Shown: positions 3,425-36,670 of the stretch, in pieces | Position numbering within the stretch: position 1 is the stretch's first letter | How the letters are laid out: each line of letters begins with the position of its first letter | Position numbers and translations under genes: made by a program | The notes under the pieces: model-generated | What the model was told of the DNA's origin: nothing | The model's input: only the letters and a program-made list of their open reading frames with translations | The model's database searches: none | Assembly: GCA_009602725.1 (NCBI GenBank) | Contig: WELB01000080.1 | Coordinates: 4,565-41,234 of the forward strand | Source: Spirogloea muscicola | Lineage: Eukaryota; Streptophyta; Zygnematophyceae; Spirogloeales; Spirogloeaceae | Direction of reading: 5' to 3' | Length of the DNA: 36,670 nt

Positions 3425-3821
3425 CCCCTGCAAGCCCGCCCGCGCCCGTGGGTCTGATAACTCTGCACACGTACCGTATTGTTGGCCTCTTTGAATGGCC
3501 AACCCCGCGAATCCTCGGATCCTTGTGCAGCCGGAGACTGGTGACGCCGAGCAACTATCTCCTCAGGCGTGGTGAATTGCGTCGGAAGTCCGTACATTGG
3601 TAGATACCTGTAGTGACCCCCCCTGTGCCGGGGTTCTGAAGAGGGGCGAGGGGAAGGGGGGTTGCGGATTTGCAGCCGGCCCCCACTCCCCCGCGAGATC
3701 GCCAGTGTCAGGTCCAGCGCCCGCGCTCGGCGGCGGCGCGCGCGGCGCGATTTGCGGCGACCTCGGCGCCGCGAGTGGCGGAGGCGGCGGCGGCGGCGGG
3801 AGGCGCGAGAGGGCGGGCAAG

Positions 3822-6800
3822 ATGAGCGTGGTGGGGATAGATGTGGGGAACGAGAGCGGGATCGTGGCGGTGGCGCGGCAGCGCGGCATCGATGTGGTGC
3901 TCAACGACGAGAGCAAGCGCGAGACGCCGAACATGGTGTCGTTCGGCGACCGGCAGCGGCTGCTGGGCGTCTCGGCCGCCGGCGCGGCGATGATGAACCC
4001 CCGCAACACCGTCTCGCAGATCAAGCGCCTGCTGGGCATGCGCTTCGCCGACGCCGACGTGCAGCGCGACCTGGCGCAGCTGCCCTTCGCCGTCGTCGAG
4101 GGCCCCGGCGGCGAGGCGCTGGTGCAGGTGCAGTACATGGGCGAGCGCCGGACGTTCACGCCGACGGCGCTGCTGGGCATGGTGCTCTCGCAGCTCAAGG
4201 CCATCGGGGAGCGCAACCTGGGCACCAAGGTCGTGGACTGCGTCATCGGCGTGCCCGTCTACCTCACGGACGCGCAGCGCCGCACGTACCTGGAGGCCGC
4301 CGAGATCGCCGGCCTCCACCCGCTGCGCCTCATGCACGACACCACCGCCGCCGCGCTGGCATACGGCATCTACAAGACCGATCTGCCGGAGGCGGACCCC
4401 ATCCAGGTCGCCTTCGTCGACGTCGGCCACTCCGTCATGCAGGTCTGCGTCGCGTCCTTCAAGAAGGGCCAGCTCAAGGTCCTGGCGCACACGTTCGACC
4501 GCAACCTGGGCGGCCGCGACTTCGACGAGGTGCTCTTCGCCCATTTTGCCGACCGCTTCCAAGACGAGTACCAGATGGACGTGCGCAGCAACCCGCGCGC
4601 CAGCCTCCGGCTCCGGGCGGCGTGCGAGAAGATGAAGAAGATGCTGTCGGCCAACCCGGAGGCGCCGCTCAACATCGAGTGCCTCATGGACGAGAAGGAC
4701 GTCAAGGGCCACATGTCGCGGGACGTGTTCCTGGAGCTCTCGCAGCCGCTCATGGCTCGCGTGCAGGAGCCCTGCTTTCGGGCCCTGCATGACGCGGGCA
4801 TCACCCCGGACAAGCTCTTTGCCGTCGAGGTCGTGGGCTCCGGCTCTCGCGTTCCTGCCATCATGAAGGCCCTGGCTGAGATCTTCCAGCGCGAACCCAG
4901 CCGCACCATGAACTCCAGCGAAGCTGTTGCCCGCGGCTGCGCCCTGCAGTGCGCTATGCTCAGCCCGACCTTCAAAGTCCGGGACTTTGAGGTGTGCCCC
5001 CTTACTCCACCACTTCGGATGTCAGAAGCAACCCATTCTGTTCTGTGTGCATATTGCACTCACTGCATCCAGCTGATTGTCACGCAAAGGGCTGATTTAT
5101 TCTAAACACATAGCTATGCCCGTAAGTTGGGTCCACTGCATGGCATGCATAGGCATGCGCACTCTCAGCCTGCGATGTGCCTCTCATGCAAGCTAGACTC
5201 AGGGGCTGTACCAAGGACAACAACCTGAACTACACAGGCTGTTTGTAGTAGGGCATGGGTGGAGCAGGAGGGGCGAGATGGGAGGGGTTTTAGCATTGGC
5301 CCGTGGATACCATTCATTGACAAGGATTGAGTATAAATGTAAATCATGAACACAGTGCCTGATTGTACTCTCAACTCCAGGTGCAAGATGTATTCCCATT
5401 TTCCATTGCGCTGTCCTGGAAGTCGCCCAGTGCTGAGGCGGGCAACAAGGAGCCCGTGTCCACAGAGGTGGTCTTCCCACGCGGCAACAGCATTCCAAGT
5501 TCGAAGCTGCTGACCTTCATTAGGTCTGAGCAGTTCACAATTGAGGCCTTGTATGCAGAACCCTCCGAGCTCCCTGAAGGAGCACCCACAAAGATTGGCA
5601 CATTCACGGTGAGTATATCAAGTCAAGCTTTGGAATTTTGCATAGCTGTGTAGTTCATTATTTTCTAAGACACTCCTGTAGGTTCACAGTATCACTTATA
5701 ATTACTTACAGTACCAAAGCATACATGCATACAGGTAGGGCCATTCCAGCCCAGCAAGCCAGACGTCAGGCCCAAGCTGAAGGTCAAAGTCAAGCTAAAT
5801 CTCCATGGCATCCTTGTTGTGGAGTCTGCGACGGTATAGTTCTCATACTCATTGCCGGGCTATTTGAGCTTGAGTCTGTTAGTATGCGCCTCCCACTATT
5901 GTGGACAAGTCAGCAAACAGCAAGTCACCACTTGCTGTTCTGCTGATTTCCACAGTGGCTTGTATGGTTTGAGCACCAACTAACTACCAGTCCTTTTGGT
6001 TAGTCATGAAGCATGCTGAGCAACATTAAGTAGCCAGCTCCTGTCATTACATGCCTGACGATGTAAGTTCTCAGAATTGTTAAGCAATCTGATAAGCACG
6101 CCGGCATTATGTGCAGCTTATTGAAGAGGAGGAGTCTGCTGCATCAAAGGATGGTGCGCCAATGGACATGGACAGCAAGGACGAGTCTGTGATGGCCGAT
6201 GGGCTGAGGGAGGAGGCAGCTGCAGTTGAAAGTGACACAGCACAAGCCACCCAGCCGGCTGCGCCCTCGGAGAACGGCGTCACACCAATGGATCAGGGCA
6301 ACGATCCGGCGACTGTCAAAGTGAGTATGGGGCACTTTGGCTCGTAACAGCTGCTATGGACTTTCTCTGATTATCATGGTATTGGAAGGCAGAGAGCAGC
6401 TAAGCAGACCTATGATTGCTAAGTGCATCACGAGTGCATTATGGATCCTGTAAGAACTGGATCAGAACCATCATGTATAGTCTGGGCCTTCACTGTAACC
6501 ACTGATTGCTGGATAGAATTAAAATCTCACACGCTGATCTCAACTGGCCTGATCCACCCGTCAGCCGGAGGCTGCAAAGAAGAAAAAGGTCCGGAGGGTG
6601 GACGTGCCTGTGGTGGCAGAGGTCATGGGAGGGTACACGCCTGCCGAGCTCCAGAATGCTGTAGAGAAAGAGCTGGAGATGGCATTGCAGGACCGCGTTA
6701 TGGAGGAGACCAAGGACAGGAAGAATGCTGTTGAGGCTTACGTGTACGACATGAGGAACAAGGCATGTTCTTAATCATGTGTTTTTGTGGGCTTGCTGAA

Positions 6801-10244: not shown

Positions 10245-15189
<4,945 letters not shown>

Positions 15190-18515: not shown

Positions 18516-19692
18516 AAGGTCTGAAGGAGCCGGAGTGCTAAATGATAAGACTTTCTTGGCATTGCAGCCACATCCCATTTCCCCGCCCCATTCCTTCTTC
18601 GCGCCTGGGCTCAAAAATCTGCTCGTCCTTACAGTTGCAGCAGCAAACGCGGGCCCATGAGCAGCAGGCAGTATAGGCTTATCTCTTTCTTGCCCACCTT
18701 TGCTCTATCCCAAGGACTACAGTCTAGGCGGGAAGATTGACACTCCTTGTAACACAGAGAAATAAGACGAGTTGATGTTGTACCAATTGGCACCTCGTCA
18801 ATGGTCATGCAAAATATGATAGCAGTCATTGTGACTGGCCAGCCCAGAAATGTATGAACAAATGGGCCACAAAAGCGGCGTAGCACACAGCGACTCAAGT
18901 GGCCACTGGGTGCTCAATATCTCCTAGTGAGCAGCCGCTGGTTATAGAAACTAGTCTCCTGCCAGCCAGATTGACGACCTAGCAAGGCAATTTGCCTACT
19001 GTGGCGCTCAAATTGCAGGACTAGAAGCAAGGTGAGATATTTCTATCAAGGGGCAGCTTCTCTACAATGCCAGGCACAAGACTAAAGAATAAAGAGCAGG
19101 GTCAGGAGGCGCCACATCAGCAGGTGGCAAGCACTCACAACCCCCTGCCATCGAAGCATATACAGCACCTATGCAACAGATAAAATGAGGACCAACTGTG
19201 GCAGCTCCAAGGCACCTGATGCTGCTGAAGTGCCTCCCTCAGAGCGGATGGTACATATACATAGCTTGTCTCAAACTTTCTGCATGCATCCGGGGAACAC
19301 CAACGGTTGCTACGCGGGGCCCTCTTTTGAGGTGCTGTGCGTGGAGCTCCTCAGAACAATGGCTGCTCTTCGCAAACCCATGTCATATGTCGACAAGCTA
19401 AGCTCAGCTTTTAATCTTGCCTGTTATCACCTCTGCCGCAACCCAATCCTCAGAGACGACAGTATGCAATGATGACTTGCCCTCAATGGCTGTGTTCAGT
19501 GGACAATTGCAAGGTGCCACGTGGTGCATGGATCTCTTTGTGCCAAGCCCTCACTGGCGCATTTGCCATACTGACAACATGCATTGCCAAGCTAGCGACA
19601 GCTGCAGTTGTCACACTTATCCACGCCTGCAACTTGTTTCTCAGAATAATGGACCGCGACAATGATCTGCCCCAATTGACTCTATGGACCAT
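18516..19692. other. Non-coding stretch downstream of RPS14
   Basis: This holds the 3' flank of the minus-strand RPS14 gene and the end of the repeat block; a last worn GGCCAGCCCAGAAATG core is near 18838. ORFs of 60-120 codons are present on both strands but show no domain, no family likeness and no supporting splice pattern. No RNA gene was recognised. Confidence 0.5.
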
Positions 19693-20870
<1,178 letters not shown>

Positions 20871-29960: not shown

Positions 29961-31466
29961 TTAGCGTCGAATGTACATCTTGCGCACAGAGCTGAGGAAG
30001 AACTCCCAAGACTCATCTCCCAAGAGAATCATGTCCCCATCCTTGTCCTGCAGTCGCACAAAATAAATCAGGCAGTTTGCTTTGAGACATGCTTCTACAT
30101 CCAAAATTGATTAAAGTATGCCCCCACATTGGCTGCTGTGGTCAGACAGTAAAAGGAGAACATTATGTATATGTGCTCAACTATTGCAGTGTAGATATAA
30201 CAGCCCACAAGCTAAGAATAGCCGAAGACATTCTTGGTCTCTCCATCTGTGCAAGTACCTGGTATACCACGGACGTGCCTTCGGTGACAGAGAGGAGCGC
30301 TTCGCGGAGCTCATTGGTAGAGTGGAAGCGTGAGAGGTCCACGGACACACCAAAGGGGGACCCCTCCACGAAGCACTTGACCCTGTGGCCCTGCTGAGTC
30401 CCGTCACCACCATCTGACCGAGGTCCCTCGTCGCTGGTGTGCGACTGGCTGCCGCCGCCGCCGCCGCCCGGCGGGGCAGCCAGACTGGCGAGCCCAGCCG
30501 GGGGGCCTCCTTGCTGTGAAAACATGCCGCCTGGCGCTGCATCAACGTCAGCGACACCTTGTGCCTGCTGCTGCGGCTGCTGCAGGTGGGCAGGCTGCGG
30601 CGGCTGTGACTGCTGCTGCAAGGAGTGCAGCTGCTGCTGCTGCTGCTGCTGCTGCGTCGTGGACACCAGTTGAGGCTGCGGTTGCTGCTGCTGCTGCTTG
30701 TCCATCTGCGGGAGCAAGAAGGCGCCTGTGTCCGATGCTGGGCCTGGGTGGCCAAATTTCTTGCCGGGCGACGGCAGTCCCAGGAGCGTGTCCTCCGTGA
30801 GGCCGAGCTGCTGGGCTGCCCGTCTGCATGGACCAAGTGTACAGCCCCAGTCAATGACCAGCGGCCGATTGGTCGCTTACCAAGAATTACATGAAGAGTC
30901 TGTAGCAACAAACCCACGTACTTCCGTGCTGAGTTGGGCTATCCAAGCTGATGTAATGGCAGCAGGCAAGCACCACTGTGCAGGCATCTGTGGTGGCATG
31001 CTGCCTCACTCTTCTCTTTGCTACTCAGATGAGAAAATTGGCAGCGACAGGCAGTGTGCAGAAAGGCAGAAGAGGTGACTAGATGTCCATGTCACACAGG
31101 CAGCGTGCCCCTGGCGACTCTTCACCTATAGCTCTCGCTGTCAAAGGCTTCGGCGGCTGGCCGCTTGCGGCTGGGATCTGCTGATACGGGGCCTCTGAGT
31201 GGAACCTGCATGCCTTGCTGACCCTGCACAACGGCACGAAGATGGTCATCAGCTTGTGGTTGCTCAAGAACAGGGTGCACCACCAAGCTGGCGGAAGCAT
31301 ATGCACATCACATGCTACTGGAAAGCAACTATTATGTATCCAACAGCAGATGGACATCAGACAGAAGGCCACACCGGTAACGAGTCCAGGATGGACCGAT
31401 TAAAAGCTGCTTGCACTCCGCTCCCGCCAACGGCGGCTCCAAGGGATGACTGCTGCTGGAGTAGCA

Positions 31467-31501
<35 letters not shown>

Positions 31502-31632
31502 ATGAATGACGCCAGAGACGACACAAACTGGTCTCGAGTCTGTGCACCTTCGCTGCCTCCACCGCTCAGCGCCTGTTTCATATGGTCGTATGGCTGCTGC
31601 ATTGCCTGCTGCGCCGCCTGCTGGTGCTGTTG

Positions 31633-31669
<37 letters not shown>

Positions 31670-34600
31670 AGCAGCTGCTGTTGCTGGAGGAGCATGCCAA
31701 CCTGCGACGACCCAAGGAGCTGCATGACCTGCGATACAGTGGCTGGATTGGATGCCAGCTGCGCCAGCAGCGCCGCTGGGACCGGCGCCCCCTGCTCACC
31801 CCGTTCCAGCTCCACGCCAAAGAGCTTCGTGTTGCTGAAGAAGAGGGCGAGATGCAAAGGGATGCGAGCACGACTTGTTAGGCTGGACATGCTGCATCTG
31901 GCTTGGGAGTGAGCACCACTGCAGCTTATGTCTGAGCGAGGTGAATATCTCGGTCGAAGTCTGAATTGACACTTCATTGCGTGCAAGTGTAAGCAGCAGA
32001 GCTATGGTAGAGGAAGATCTGCATGCCTGGCTGTATCATCAAGCTGCTTTCCGGGTGTCCCTGCTTGAGAAGCAGGGGACATGAGGCCATTGGCCAGGCG
32101 CATGGCATCCTCGTGGCTCATCCCAGCAAGGCTCCCAAGTGCCGAGTTGCCTCCGACGCGGTTAGCAATGCCATGAACCCACGACGAGGGATCCTGCGCA
32201 CAAAGTGACTACTGAAGCTTTCAATGTCTGGAGCTTCAGCAGGTATAGGTATTTGTAACCCTGGTGATGAAGAATACATATCCATCAAGTTGCTCAAGCA
32301 CAAGCTCCTTAGATGTGGAGACAATGATGGCAAGCAATTAACTCAAGAGGTCCGCAAACAAAGTAGCAGCAGAAGTAGAACCCGTCGGAGCCCACCTGCG
32401 CCTGCTGATCGGATGACGGCGTGGGTGGTGTTATGAGCGCTAAGGGCCGCTGCAGCGATGTGGACGTGGTCTGGAACGAGCTCTGCCGTTGCCAGCTGCG
32501 AGCACCGGCCGTGCCGCCGCCGGATGATCCATCCCCAGTTCCTGAGGGTGAGGGCTGGAAGCCTGCAGCTGGCCTCCTCTTGAAGCCTGGACGCAACGAA
32601 CGTTCATTACAGTCATCCATCATCATTGACTTATTCATTACATCATTAATTACAGTGACTTGGAAAGAGCTACATTAGGGTCAATATGAGCAAGCTAAGA
32701 TAATAGTGGCAGGTGGAAGTTGCTCACCTATGTACAGCTCTTGATTCTCGCCCTTCTCAAAGAGGACGATGTCTCCCGGCACCAGCAGCTTCTCTTTCAC
32801 AAAGCGACTCCAGCCCTTTGTCAAAACGTAGCTCTGGCTGCTATTCCAGTACGAATAGCGGAAGCGCCAGTGCTTCCCAATCTCGTCTTCAAATGAGAGC
32901 GTCTGAAATAGCAGAGTGACGACAATTGCATGAGTTGTTATGAATAGAAGGACACAGTGCAACTACATTGAGCACTCAACGTTGTTTACATCATCTGGCA
33001 ACTTCAGGCAACTCAATGATGCTTCATCGACAGTACCGCATGCACTTTGCCATCACTCCCTGTTTGGTGCACAGCCTACACCCACTGAAGTGAATACTAA
33101 CGGAGAGTCTAAGAGCATGAGTGCTGGGGCGTTCTAAGAAGTCGAACACATGCAACCAAATGAACACTTGCCACTTATCTGACAACAACTTCCTTGACAT
33201 GATTACAGATCAGGCGACTCAAGACTGCTCTATCAAGTGAAGCAGCATACATCGACGCAAAAACCTTCCACCCGATGTACAGAGTACGACCACTGTATAA
33301 TATAAGAACATGAACAGGCCAGCAACTCTACGTGAACATACTGCAAGACCAGGATGAGCAAAAGAAGGAGGAATGCGGCTGCTGTATAGTAAAGTATCGG
33401 CTAAAGGATGAGCAAGGAGAGCTAAGCCACTTGCCTGTGCAGGAGTTGTGCTGGTGAGGTCAAGAGGAAAGCATCTCTCTGCGTGCTGTTTGGGGATGAC
33501 CAGCCGGTTCAACTTCCCAACGTCACTTGGAGTGACCTGCTTCTCAAAGAGAGGCTCCCGAAAGCCTGACCGGGAAGGATCACTCCCACCTGCTCCACTC
33601 GCAGGAGCTCGCGAGCGCGCCGCATCATCTGATGGCGCAAAGCCTGACATGAGCTTGCTCTGCTCGAGCTCCTCGTCATACGTGTGTCTCCGAAGCATGT
33701 CCACGATCTGCTCCAAAGGGCCAAGCAAGCAGGTCATGCCAAGGGGACAGGCGACTTGATGCATTGTCCTCAATAGCTCGATCGGAGGTTGACACTGCCA
33801 AATGCAGTCGTATTACCCTACACAAGCATATCTGACAAATGGACATCCTTCACTGTGAATGCGGGCTTGTTAGTTAGTTGGTCAGCCTCGTGTCAGACCT
33901 GCTCCTTCGTGTGCGACCGGATGAAAGCTCCCTCAGGGTCGGACTCGCGGACGGGCCGGAAGTTGGTCATCGCATCGCGGCCCCGGAACTTGATGGCAGC
34001 GCGGTCATAGGCCTTGGCGGCCGCCTCCTCGCTGTTGAACGTGCCGAGCCACACGCGCATGTGCTTCTCGTAGATCTGCGCCCCCCACCTGCCATTGGGC
34101 TGGGGCACCACCCCGCGGTACTGCGAGGAGCACAGCCGGTTGGGCTCGCTGGCATTCAGCGAGCCCCCGTGGAGGTCAGTGCCTGCACCGCCTTCCTCGT
34201 CGGCGGCATCCCTGCCCTCCTCGCTGCCCTCTGTGCCGCCGTCCACCTTCCTAGCTTTGCCAGACTTCTGCTTCTTGCCCCAGGCCTTCTTCCCTGCAGG
34301 GCTTCCGTCGCCGTTGACGTCCTCCTTCTTCACGGCCTGGACCTTGGCTGGCTCGCTGCCTGCAATGCCCGCACCATTGCCAGCCGCCCCAGCAGTGCCC
34401 CCTTGCCCGTTGAGGAGAGCGCCGGTCACAGCAGCTTCCAGCGCCGCCGCCATCAGAGTGGGTCCTCCTTGGACCCCCTCCGGAGCCAGAACGTGCGCAC
34501 TTCCCTCGCCCATGGACTGCATTGCTGCTCCTTGCTCACCAAGGCCAGCTCCCTCCTCTGGATGACCTTCTGCTGCGGCTTCAATGGCACCACTCTCATG

Positions 34601-35101
34601 AGCAGCCTTGTCAGTGCCATCTGCATCATTCCTCTCTGCCGGTTCTGCGCTAACGCCAAGGGCATCTGCAGCTGTTGCAAAGGATGGCGATGGTTCGGGC
34701 TTGTCCGAGGTGCTCCGGGGCTCAACGACTCTGGGGCTGAGCCTCCCGACTCGCCGAAACGCGCCACCGCCCTCCGCACCCTGGCTCAAGGAGGCCAAGA
34801 CGCCCGCCCCGACCTCCATCTCTGGGAGGCCCATAGACCGATCTTCCAAGGAGGTGGCTCCCATGGCTACTGCTGCCGCCGACCAGCTCTGCAGCTCTGC
34901 CGCTGCCAGCGACGCTGGCGAGAGAGGGCCAGCCTTCTCGCCTTCGCTGGGGGCCTCTGCAGGCTGCCTCTCCTGCAGCTTGTCGACGCCTTCTCCGTCA
35001 GAGCCCGATTCACAGTCCCAAGGGCTAAGTCTGACAATGACGGGGGGAGCTCCGGTGCCCGGCCCGTTGCACTGCACAACCAGGCTTTGCAAGGCTGACA
35101 C
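29961..35101 (-). CDS. AP2-B3-PB1 transcription factor (RAV-like DNA-binding half, ARF-like C-terminus)
   Basis: Exons on the minus strand: 35101-33899, 33707-33435, 32902-32728, 32586-32396, 32193-32027, 31834-31375, 31223-31126, 30823-30259, 30047-29961. From the ATG at 35101 this gives 1072 residues. An AP2 domain (about 327-382: [37 protein letters not shown]) is followed by the RAV linker [18 protein letters not shown] and a B3 domain (about 452-551: [40 protein letters not shown]). Then come KLFGV (673-677, the repression motif of plant RAVs), glutamine-rich tracts, and a PB1 domain (about 1002-1069: [20 protein letters not shown], then [17 protein letters not shown]). The PB1 has both the basic lysine face and the acidic D-x-D-x-D/GD face, so head-to-tail oligomers are possible. 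Phases agree at all eight junctions, and two introns (33434 and 32026) have GC donors. It is a nuclear regulator with targets unknown. The start is uncertain (see 35260-35837). Confidence 0.85.
30615..31700 (-). repeat. CAG-repeat tracts coding for polyglutamine
   Basis: Runs of CTG on the plus strand at about 30629-30655, 30683-30700, 31465-31497 and 31638-31668 read as CAG on the coding strand. They give Q stretches of about 5 to 14 residues in two exons of the transcription factor. Such tracts vary in length between strains. In class A auxin response factors a Q-rich middle region activates transcription. Confidence 0.85.
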
Positions 35102-35259
35102 TGGGAAGCGCTCGCCATCCTTCGGCTCCTGCGCTCACCGCCAAGCCATCCCGATCAACAACAAGATCTGGCCACAGAGCATGCTGGATACTTGTCTAGT
35201 GAGGCTAAGTGATCCATCACAAAGCTGCTCCCGGGCCAAGGCTCAGGCATGCACAGCAC

Positions 35260-35837
35260 CTGCTGTATCACTGTGCCGCGGACCCTGTCTGAAGTGGCCG
35301 TGTGCGGCGCGAGCTTCACTTTCACGCGCTTTCCAACTGGCCAGGCAGCCGGTAGATTCTTTGGGTTGCTCCCAAGAAGCAGCTCCAGGTCCTCAGTCAG
35401 CTCTGCTGCAAGCTGGCTGCGGAGCGACGGCACACCGCTCCAGATCTGGCCTTTGTTGCCGCCCTCAGGTAGCCTAGGGCGCGCATCTGCCTCCGGGCCA
35501 CCGTCTTCGTTGACCCCGAGATGGCCGCCGGCTGCAGTGCTCTCATTGAAAGGCTCTTCGCCCATGAGCTGGCTGCTCTTTCGACCCGTGCTCGGCTTCA
35601 GCTGCTGCTGCTCAACGTGGCCATCCAGGGGACTCAAGGCTGCAGCCTGGCTTGTGACTGCAGCGTGTGGCGCCTTGATGCTCAAGAGCAATTCGGGCGG
35701 CAGACAGCTGGCTTCCTGCTCTTTGTGGGTGCTTGTCGACCTCTTAGCCTCGGGGTCGACGAGCTTCAGAGCGGGAAGGAGCGCAGGTGAGAAGCTGTCC
35801 CGCATGGGCATCCCGACACCCGAGCAGACCAAGTCGC
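35260..35837 (-). CDS. Probable upstream exon of the AP2-B3-PB1 gene
   Basis: On the minus strand a clear acceptor (CTTTCCGCAG) opens a 578-base exon that reads without a stop (DLVCSGVGMPMRDSFSPALL ... WPVGKRVKVKLAPHTATSD) up to a donor CAG/GTGCTG at 35259. Spliced to an acceptor at 35072 (GTTGTGCAG), the frame continues into the AP2 exon as [27 protein letters not shown], replacing the first ten residues counted from 35101. The joined segment GKRVKVKL...RGTVIQQ...VIVRLSPWD resembles a small beta-barrel of agenet or tudor kind (weak inference). It could instead be the end of a separate gene. The first exon with the true ATG was not found. Confidence 0.5.
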
Positions 35838-36521
35838 CTGCGGAAAGGCAAGAGATACATTGCTGGCACTGATAGCAGCGCAAGTGCAAAACATCTGACG
35901 ACCTTCGTGGCAAGGACTGTGGCCAAGTCGAAAACCGGACTTCAAGGCACCACCACCTCTTAATCAGCACCAAAGCCTTGGCACAATTGCTGGGGCTTAT
36001 CCTGCGAAGCTCTTCCAACACCACCTCACTCAAAACTCTAACACCACCTCAGTCAAAGGGAAAGGCTTCTCACATCCTCCACGAAGTTTGCACTGGGCCA
36101 CAGCCTTGCGTCTAGCTGCCAGATGTCTGGCAGCTCCACCACCAGTCCCAGTCCCTCATCACTTTCACAAATAGCTGGACACAACACATCAGCACAACAT
36201 TGGAGCTCAGCCTCTGCCACTCTCCTCCGCTGCCCCTTTGAGCCACAAATGTGCGCTGCTCAGCGGGCGTCGCCTCGAGTATCACTACACGGAGGCTGGT
36301 AGCCGAGTGCAGACTTCAGCAGACAAGCCTCCATGCATCTTGCCAACAACCTCAATGCCCACTCCCTCATTGCACTGAGTTTCGTGACACGAGGGTCTGC
36401 TGCAGGTGGAGCGGACTATCAAGCAGCCGCTGCTGCTGACGAGCTTTCTCAAGGTTAGCTCACCTGTTCCTCATGCCCTGACAGCACAGCTCTGAGAAGC
36501 ACGAGCAGCGCTCGGCTGCCA
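35838..36521. other. 5' flank of the transcription factor with unresolved coding-like patches
   Basis: On the minus strand 36165-36074 reads GLGLVVELPDIWQLDARLWP then SANFVED up to a donor GAT/GTGAGA. It could be an earlier exon of the transcription factor. On the plus strand 36406-36453 is bounded by CTGCAG and GTTAGC and is open in more than one frame, so a divergent gene may begin here. Neither is supported by homology I recognise. Confidence 0.3.

Positions 36522-36670
<149 letters not shown>

Follow-up and report, generated by a model that had tools for sequence, protein, structure and literature searches.

What kind of transcription factor carries AP2 and B3 domains together with a C-terminal PB1 domain, and does a single gene encode it? 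The question is raised by a minus-strand locus in a 36,670-nucleotide stretch of Spirogloea muscicola DNA (contig WELB01000080.1, positions 4,565 to 41,234), hereafter the window, to whose numbering all coordinates refer unless a contig or locus is named. The initial annotation had read the locus as a possible hybrid layout of RAV and auxin response factor (ARF) in a chlorophyte-type alga. With a probability of roughly 0.8, judged from the sequence, we conclude that this is a streptophyte-algal gene for a RAV transcription factor with a PB1, present in three duplicated copies that are probably homeologs. The single gene, the RAV-type AP2 and B3 and the ARF/Aux-IAA-type PB1 of the earlier interpretation stand; a chlorophyte host and an undescribed hybrid are not supported. 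The architecture has already been published, and this gene shows the known PB1-bearing RAV layout cleanly in genomic sequence.

Gene structure and domain order

Counted from 35119, the spliced reading frame comprises 1078 residues and closes with a TAA stop at 29961 (Table 1); the exon 1 bound of 35121 is an arbitrary cut. The agreement of phase over eight introns that had been proposed holds, in that the frame is open down to this stop and the exons are kept in all three copies. Each of the eight introns ends in AG, with GT at the start of six and GC at the start of the other two (introns 2 and 5).

Pfam searches with the spliced protein returned AP2 (PF00847, 35.1 bits; cut-off 33.3), B3 (PF02362, 86.7 bits; cut-off 30.1; residues 461-561) and AUX_IAA (PF02309, 25.9 bits; cut-off 22.7; residues 1047-1076). 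The last match covers only 30 residues of the full protein, at profile positions 181-210, which is the second half of PB1, and the PB1 piece searched alone scored 42.7 bits in two stretches. Among solved structures, AP2 plus linker was nearest to TEM1 (7et4, 9.7e-41). B3 matched RAV1 (1e-41) and NGA1 (2.1e-41), with weaker matches to the best ARF (1.1e-17), ARF1 (4.3e-15) and VAL1 (1.1e-12). The PB1 matched IAA4 (2.4e-7), ARF5 (3.8e-6) and IAA17 (4.1e-5), and more weakly ARF7 (0.0056), Cdc24 (0.026) and NBR1 (0.71). The matches to IAA4 and ARF5, and PF02309 above its cut-off, confirm a PB1 of the ARF domain III/IV type, as first suggested. A basic patch and an acidic stretch are both present in it; in PB1 domains the latter is called OPCA.

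The order AP2, RAV linker, B3, KLFGV, Q-rich middle and C-terminal PB1, recognised from the outset, is thus borne out by Pfam and structure matches on the spliced frame. These are the features of a RAV protein: AP2 followed by a RAV-type B3 with WNSSQS, then KLFGV and an ARF/Aux-IAA-type PB1 at the C-terminus. An ARF assignment fits poorly, with the B3 far nearer to RAV1 than to any ARF and with the ARF ancillary domain PF06507 not found in the spliced protein up to E 10. In the literature, which is cited throughout from excerpts of the papers, WNSSQS is given as characteristic of RAV B3 domains (PMC6797205) and R/KLFGV as the BRD (PMC10272232). CAG/CTG repeats encode glutamine tracts at 30565-30655, 31467-31497 and 31606-31686.

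Table 1. Coordinates of the gene, its exons and its domains within the window
Feature	Position	Strand	Basis or remark
AP2-B3-PB1 (PB1-bearing RAV) gene	29961..35119	-	nine coding exons, spliced reading of DNA
Exon 1	35121-33899	-	5' bound arbitrary
AP2 domain, exon 1	33980..34123	-	PF00847, residues 333-380
Exon 2: RAV linker and start of B3	33435..33707	-	structure matches
Exon 3: most of remaining B3, with WNSSQS loop	32728..32902	-	PF02362
Exon 4	32586-32396	-	
Exon 5	32193-32027	-	
Exon 6	31834-31375	-	
KLFGV, BRD (B3 repression) motif, exon 6	31813..31827	-	sequence
Q-rich middle, exons 6-8	30500..31834	-	tract lengths vary among three copies
Exon 7	31223-31126	-	
Exon 8	30823-30259	-	
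PB1 first part (HRVKCF...VVYQ), end of exon 8	30259..30387	-	AUX_IAA and structure matches
Intron 8, interrupts PB1	30048..30258	-	GT-AG in all three copies
Exon 9: second part of PB1 with acidic stretch, and stop	29961..30047	-	PF02309; IAA4 and ARF5 PB1

Three copies and selection on the PB1

We searched the genome (G000; 153,112,186 bases in 471 contigs) and found two further copies of the AP2-B3-PB1 gene, on contigs C49 and C136. A genome-wide search with the PB1 itself (E up to 1) gave six matches, which are the two PB1 exons in each of the three copies. In all three the spliced frame is open, the domains are kept and KLFGV is unchanged. Seven exons are identical in length; the others differ by multiples of three (460, 451 and 451 for exon 6; 565, 574 and 595 for exon 8), and the lengths of the Q tracts vary as well. 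The splice dinucleotides of all eight introns are the same in every copy, and intron lengths vary freely (for example 532, 472 and 480 for intron 2).

Nei-Gojobori counts among the three copies gave a whole-gene rate of 0.022-0.024 for non-synonymous changes (dN) versus 0.15-0.19 for synonymous changes (dS). For the PB1, dN was 0-0.006 versus a dS of 0.27-0.30, corresponding to 0-1 non-synonymous changes on 164 sites and 11-12 synonymous changes on 49. The B3 gave 0-1 non-synonymous changes on about 250 sites versus 6-12 synonymous changes on about 68. We conclude that the PB1 is under strong purifying selection. The conserved exons and the pattern of dN and dS together have the look of one constrained coding unit.

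The similarity extends beyond the gene: C49 and C136 both share with the window a collinear block of about 15 kb (about 21.6-21.8 kb to 36.5 kb in window numbering) at about 87% identity. Within the 39.5 kb fetched per contig, collinearity ends at about 21.7 kb. Below that point nothing else in the 39.5 kb of C136 matched the window on the same strand, and the C49 stretch matched 19393-20866 (93%) plus short pieces. What the three contigs share is thus one segment that breaks off, and the window as a whole is not collinear. The three copies are probably homeologs, and together with the GRAS matches described below, the copies and their collinearity, as far as it reaches, would fit a zygnematophyte with a whole-genome triplication such as S. 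muscicola. Other B3 matches in the genome may also form threes (C208, C133 and C107; C256, C234 and C168), as grouped by score alone and with C168 below the cut-off.

Host, rival readings and mode of action

Matches to the ARF ancillary domain PF06507 occur at three loci in the genome, on C17, C33 and C147, and at each of them two pieces exceed the cut-off. A weak B3 match adjoins each of these loci, with only that on C33 exceeding its cut-off. A seventh PF06507 match (C49:403503, E 0.736) lies below the cut-off and was taken as chance. Searched exon by exon, the genome also gave 92 matches to GRAS (E up to 0.001). Because of these ARF loci of its own and the GRAS matches, we place the host among the streptophytes and not among the chlorophytes. 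A chlorophyte RAV-ARF hybrid, which would bear on the origin of ARFs outside streptophytes, is therefore very improbable. It also runs counter to published work, which in the excerpt cited reports the B3 domains of RAV and ARF in streptophytes only (PMC11685440). Chlorophytes are described as lacking RAV and LBD genes (PMC10272232). Nor is the layout new: charophyte AP2-B3-PB1 proteins were named proto-RAV in 2018 (PMC5873896), and the present protein, with its RAV-type B3, belongs with these streptophyte-algal proteins. Could two adjacent genes, an AP2-B3 RAV and a Q-rich PB1 protein, nevertheless have been mistaken for one? PB1 proteins that have no DNA-binding domain are reported from charophytes, and most of them group with proto-RAV (PMC5873896). 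However, a single frame runs through nine exons whose splice sites and lengths are conserved in all three copies, and KnRAV of Klebsormidium nitens is described with the same domain order (PMC6797205, PMC10272232). Because of the three-copy comparison in particular, we regard two separate genes as highly improbable.

How such a PB1-bearing RAV would act can be sketched from its characterised relatives. AP2 and B3 would jointly bind a bipartite site of the CAACA...CACCTG type. The PB1, with its basic patch and acidic stretch, could join molecules head to tail, allowing several of them to occupy clustered sites. KLFGV would recruit a TOPLESS-type co-repressor and so make repression the default output; in some settings, to judge from a KnRAV reporter result, the output may be activation. 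KnRAV itself is reported to bind an AP2/B3 bipartite element (PMC6797205) and CCTG motifs of the KnLBD1 promoter (PMC10272232).

Several points weigh against this account of the gene and its function. The AP2 score barely exceeds its Pfam cut-off (35.1 versus 33.3 bits). Although PF00847, PF02362 and PF02309 all passed their cut-offs, the fourth profile named in the initial annotation, PF00564 for PB1 in general, did not match the spliced protein up to E 10. Two introns are of the GC-AG type, one with an unusual donor (GCATGC), and these are supported by conservation alone. The reporter result also speaks against simple repression, KnRAV having raised reporter activity in a leaf co-infiltration assay (PMC10272232). 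Finally, the gene model is probably incomplete at its 5' end. The start given initially, 35101, does not hold, as the frame is open up to 35134, with its first in-frame ATG at 34864. The first 95 codons from 35119, 85 of them upstream of this ATG, gave a dN of 0.014-0.034 versus a dS of 0.19-0.21, and the stretch before the ATG is probably coding. Because these codons evolve like coding sequence, an extra 5' exon missing from the model probably lies further upstream.

The open frame at 35158-36048 was considered as an N-terminal exon and not adopted. Pfam gave it no match (E up to 0.01), and the longest upstream open stretches run to 297, 217 and 236 codons in the three copies, the C49 one lying in another frame. 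The window ends in a run of 29 G and then 120 T (36522-36670), immediately followed in the contig by 2766 bases of N, which fill the rest of the sequence retrieved there. In the 9.5 kb fetched around each of the other two copies, T runs of 20 or more are absent, and the G/T run is probably an assembly artefact.

Elsewhere in the window, an HSP70 open frame lies on the plus strand at 3576-5102 (433 bits, residues 85-481). The open frame opposite to it matches Pfam NAD-GH, probably as a spurious antisense match. A further plus-strand open frame, at 12295-12996, carries part of an MCM P-loop domain (43.8 bits).

PB1 pairing and comparison with known systems

A 61-residue PB1-like segment, found by eye at each ARF locus (L027:6747-6929, L028:6653-6835 and L029:6527-6709), is a candidate part of the ARF gene. 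Pfam assigned no family to it. Compared with solved structures, its three-copy profile matched the PB1 of ARF7 (4nj6) at 2.7e-6, and the other three matches were at E 0.26 or worse. The 4nj6 chain is itself an engineered mutant with alanines in the acidic stretch. In hhalign the segment aligned with the RAV PB1 profile at 37.7% probability (E 0.00034). Another profile, which included IAA4 pieces, was partly circular, and its IAA4 and IAA17 scores were not used. Aligned by eye, ARF5 VDYESDVLLVGDDPW corresponds to AAHNGTLQIVGNEPW, AAHNGTLQFVGNEPW and AAHNGNLQFVGNEPW in the three ARF copies, so that four of the five acidic positions are lost in each of them. The segment is nonetheless constrained, with a dN of 0.014-0.055 and a dS of 0.22-0.46. 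A genome-wide PF02309 search (E up to 10) gave three matches from three candidates, all of them the RAV copies; this exon-by-exon search begins with a loose first look and also missed the ARF PB1-like segments, leaving the absence of Aux/IAA unproven.

These observations bear on what the RAV PB1 binds. Its main partners might be ARFs or other PB1 proteins and not other RAV molecules, a reading that gains from the scarcity of acidic residues in the ARF segment and from yeast two-hybrid assays in which RAV PB1s commonly bind algal ARF PB1s (PMC11685440). We consider it unlikely, however, because the KnRAV PB1 oligomerises alone, as seen by size-exclusion chromatography with multi-angle laser light scattering (PMC6797205), the PB1 of Marchantia MpRAV strongly self-interacts (PMC11685440), and the present PB1 has a basic as well as an acidic stretch. 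A further reading, which we regard as tentative and rather doubtful, makes the RAV PB1 the sole partner that has the two faces; through its PB1, RAV could then build chains of its own molecules and, in one direction only, cap or recruit ARFs, a role like that of Aux/IAA played without auxin. Against this, algal ARF PB1s are reported to show a widespread homotypic interaction profile in yeast, and the S. muscicola AB-class ARFs used in those tests are described as full-length from the DNA-binding domain to PB1 (both PMC11685440). If the loss in the ARF segment is real, RAV would be the sole holder of the acidic face among the RAV and ARF PB1s here, and it might provide that face where RAV and ARF meet. 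The contrast with the acid-poor ARF segment of the same genome opens one-way RAV-ARF pairing to test.

The gene favoured here, a PB1-bearing RAV, has a layout absent from vascular-plant RAVs. It agrees with the published view in which B3, BRD and PB1 are common to RAV and ARF, and its three copies permit a test of selection on the PB1. According to the excerpts cited, PB1-bearing RAVs were kept in bryophytes and streptophyte algae and not in tracheophytes (PMC11685440). Its closest counterparts are KnRAV (kfl00094_0070) and the other algal proto-RAVs, which share the AP2, the RAV-type B3 with WNSSQS, the R/KLFGV and the ARF/Aux-IAA-type PB1 (PMC6797205, PMC10272232, PMC5873896). KnRAV, compared here by its published description, belongs to another lineage, and the present gene differs in its long Q-rich tracts and its three copies. 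The land-plant proteins RAV1, TEM1 and NGA1 align closely with it in AP2 plus linker (TEM1) and in B3 (all three); NGA1 is not known to have an AP2. Unlike the present protein, tracheophyte RAVs are described as lacking a PB1 (PMC6797205, PMC11685440). With ARFs it has in common the B3 fold, a KLFG-type motif, a Q-rich middle and a PB1, and it differs from them in its AP2, its RAV-type B3 and the ancillary domain that they carry and that the search here did not find. A Q-rich middle is a usual part of ARFs. Finally, Aux/IAA proteins provide, in IAA4, the nearest PB1 by sequence among solved structures, whereas the protein described here has DNA-binding domains of its own.

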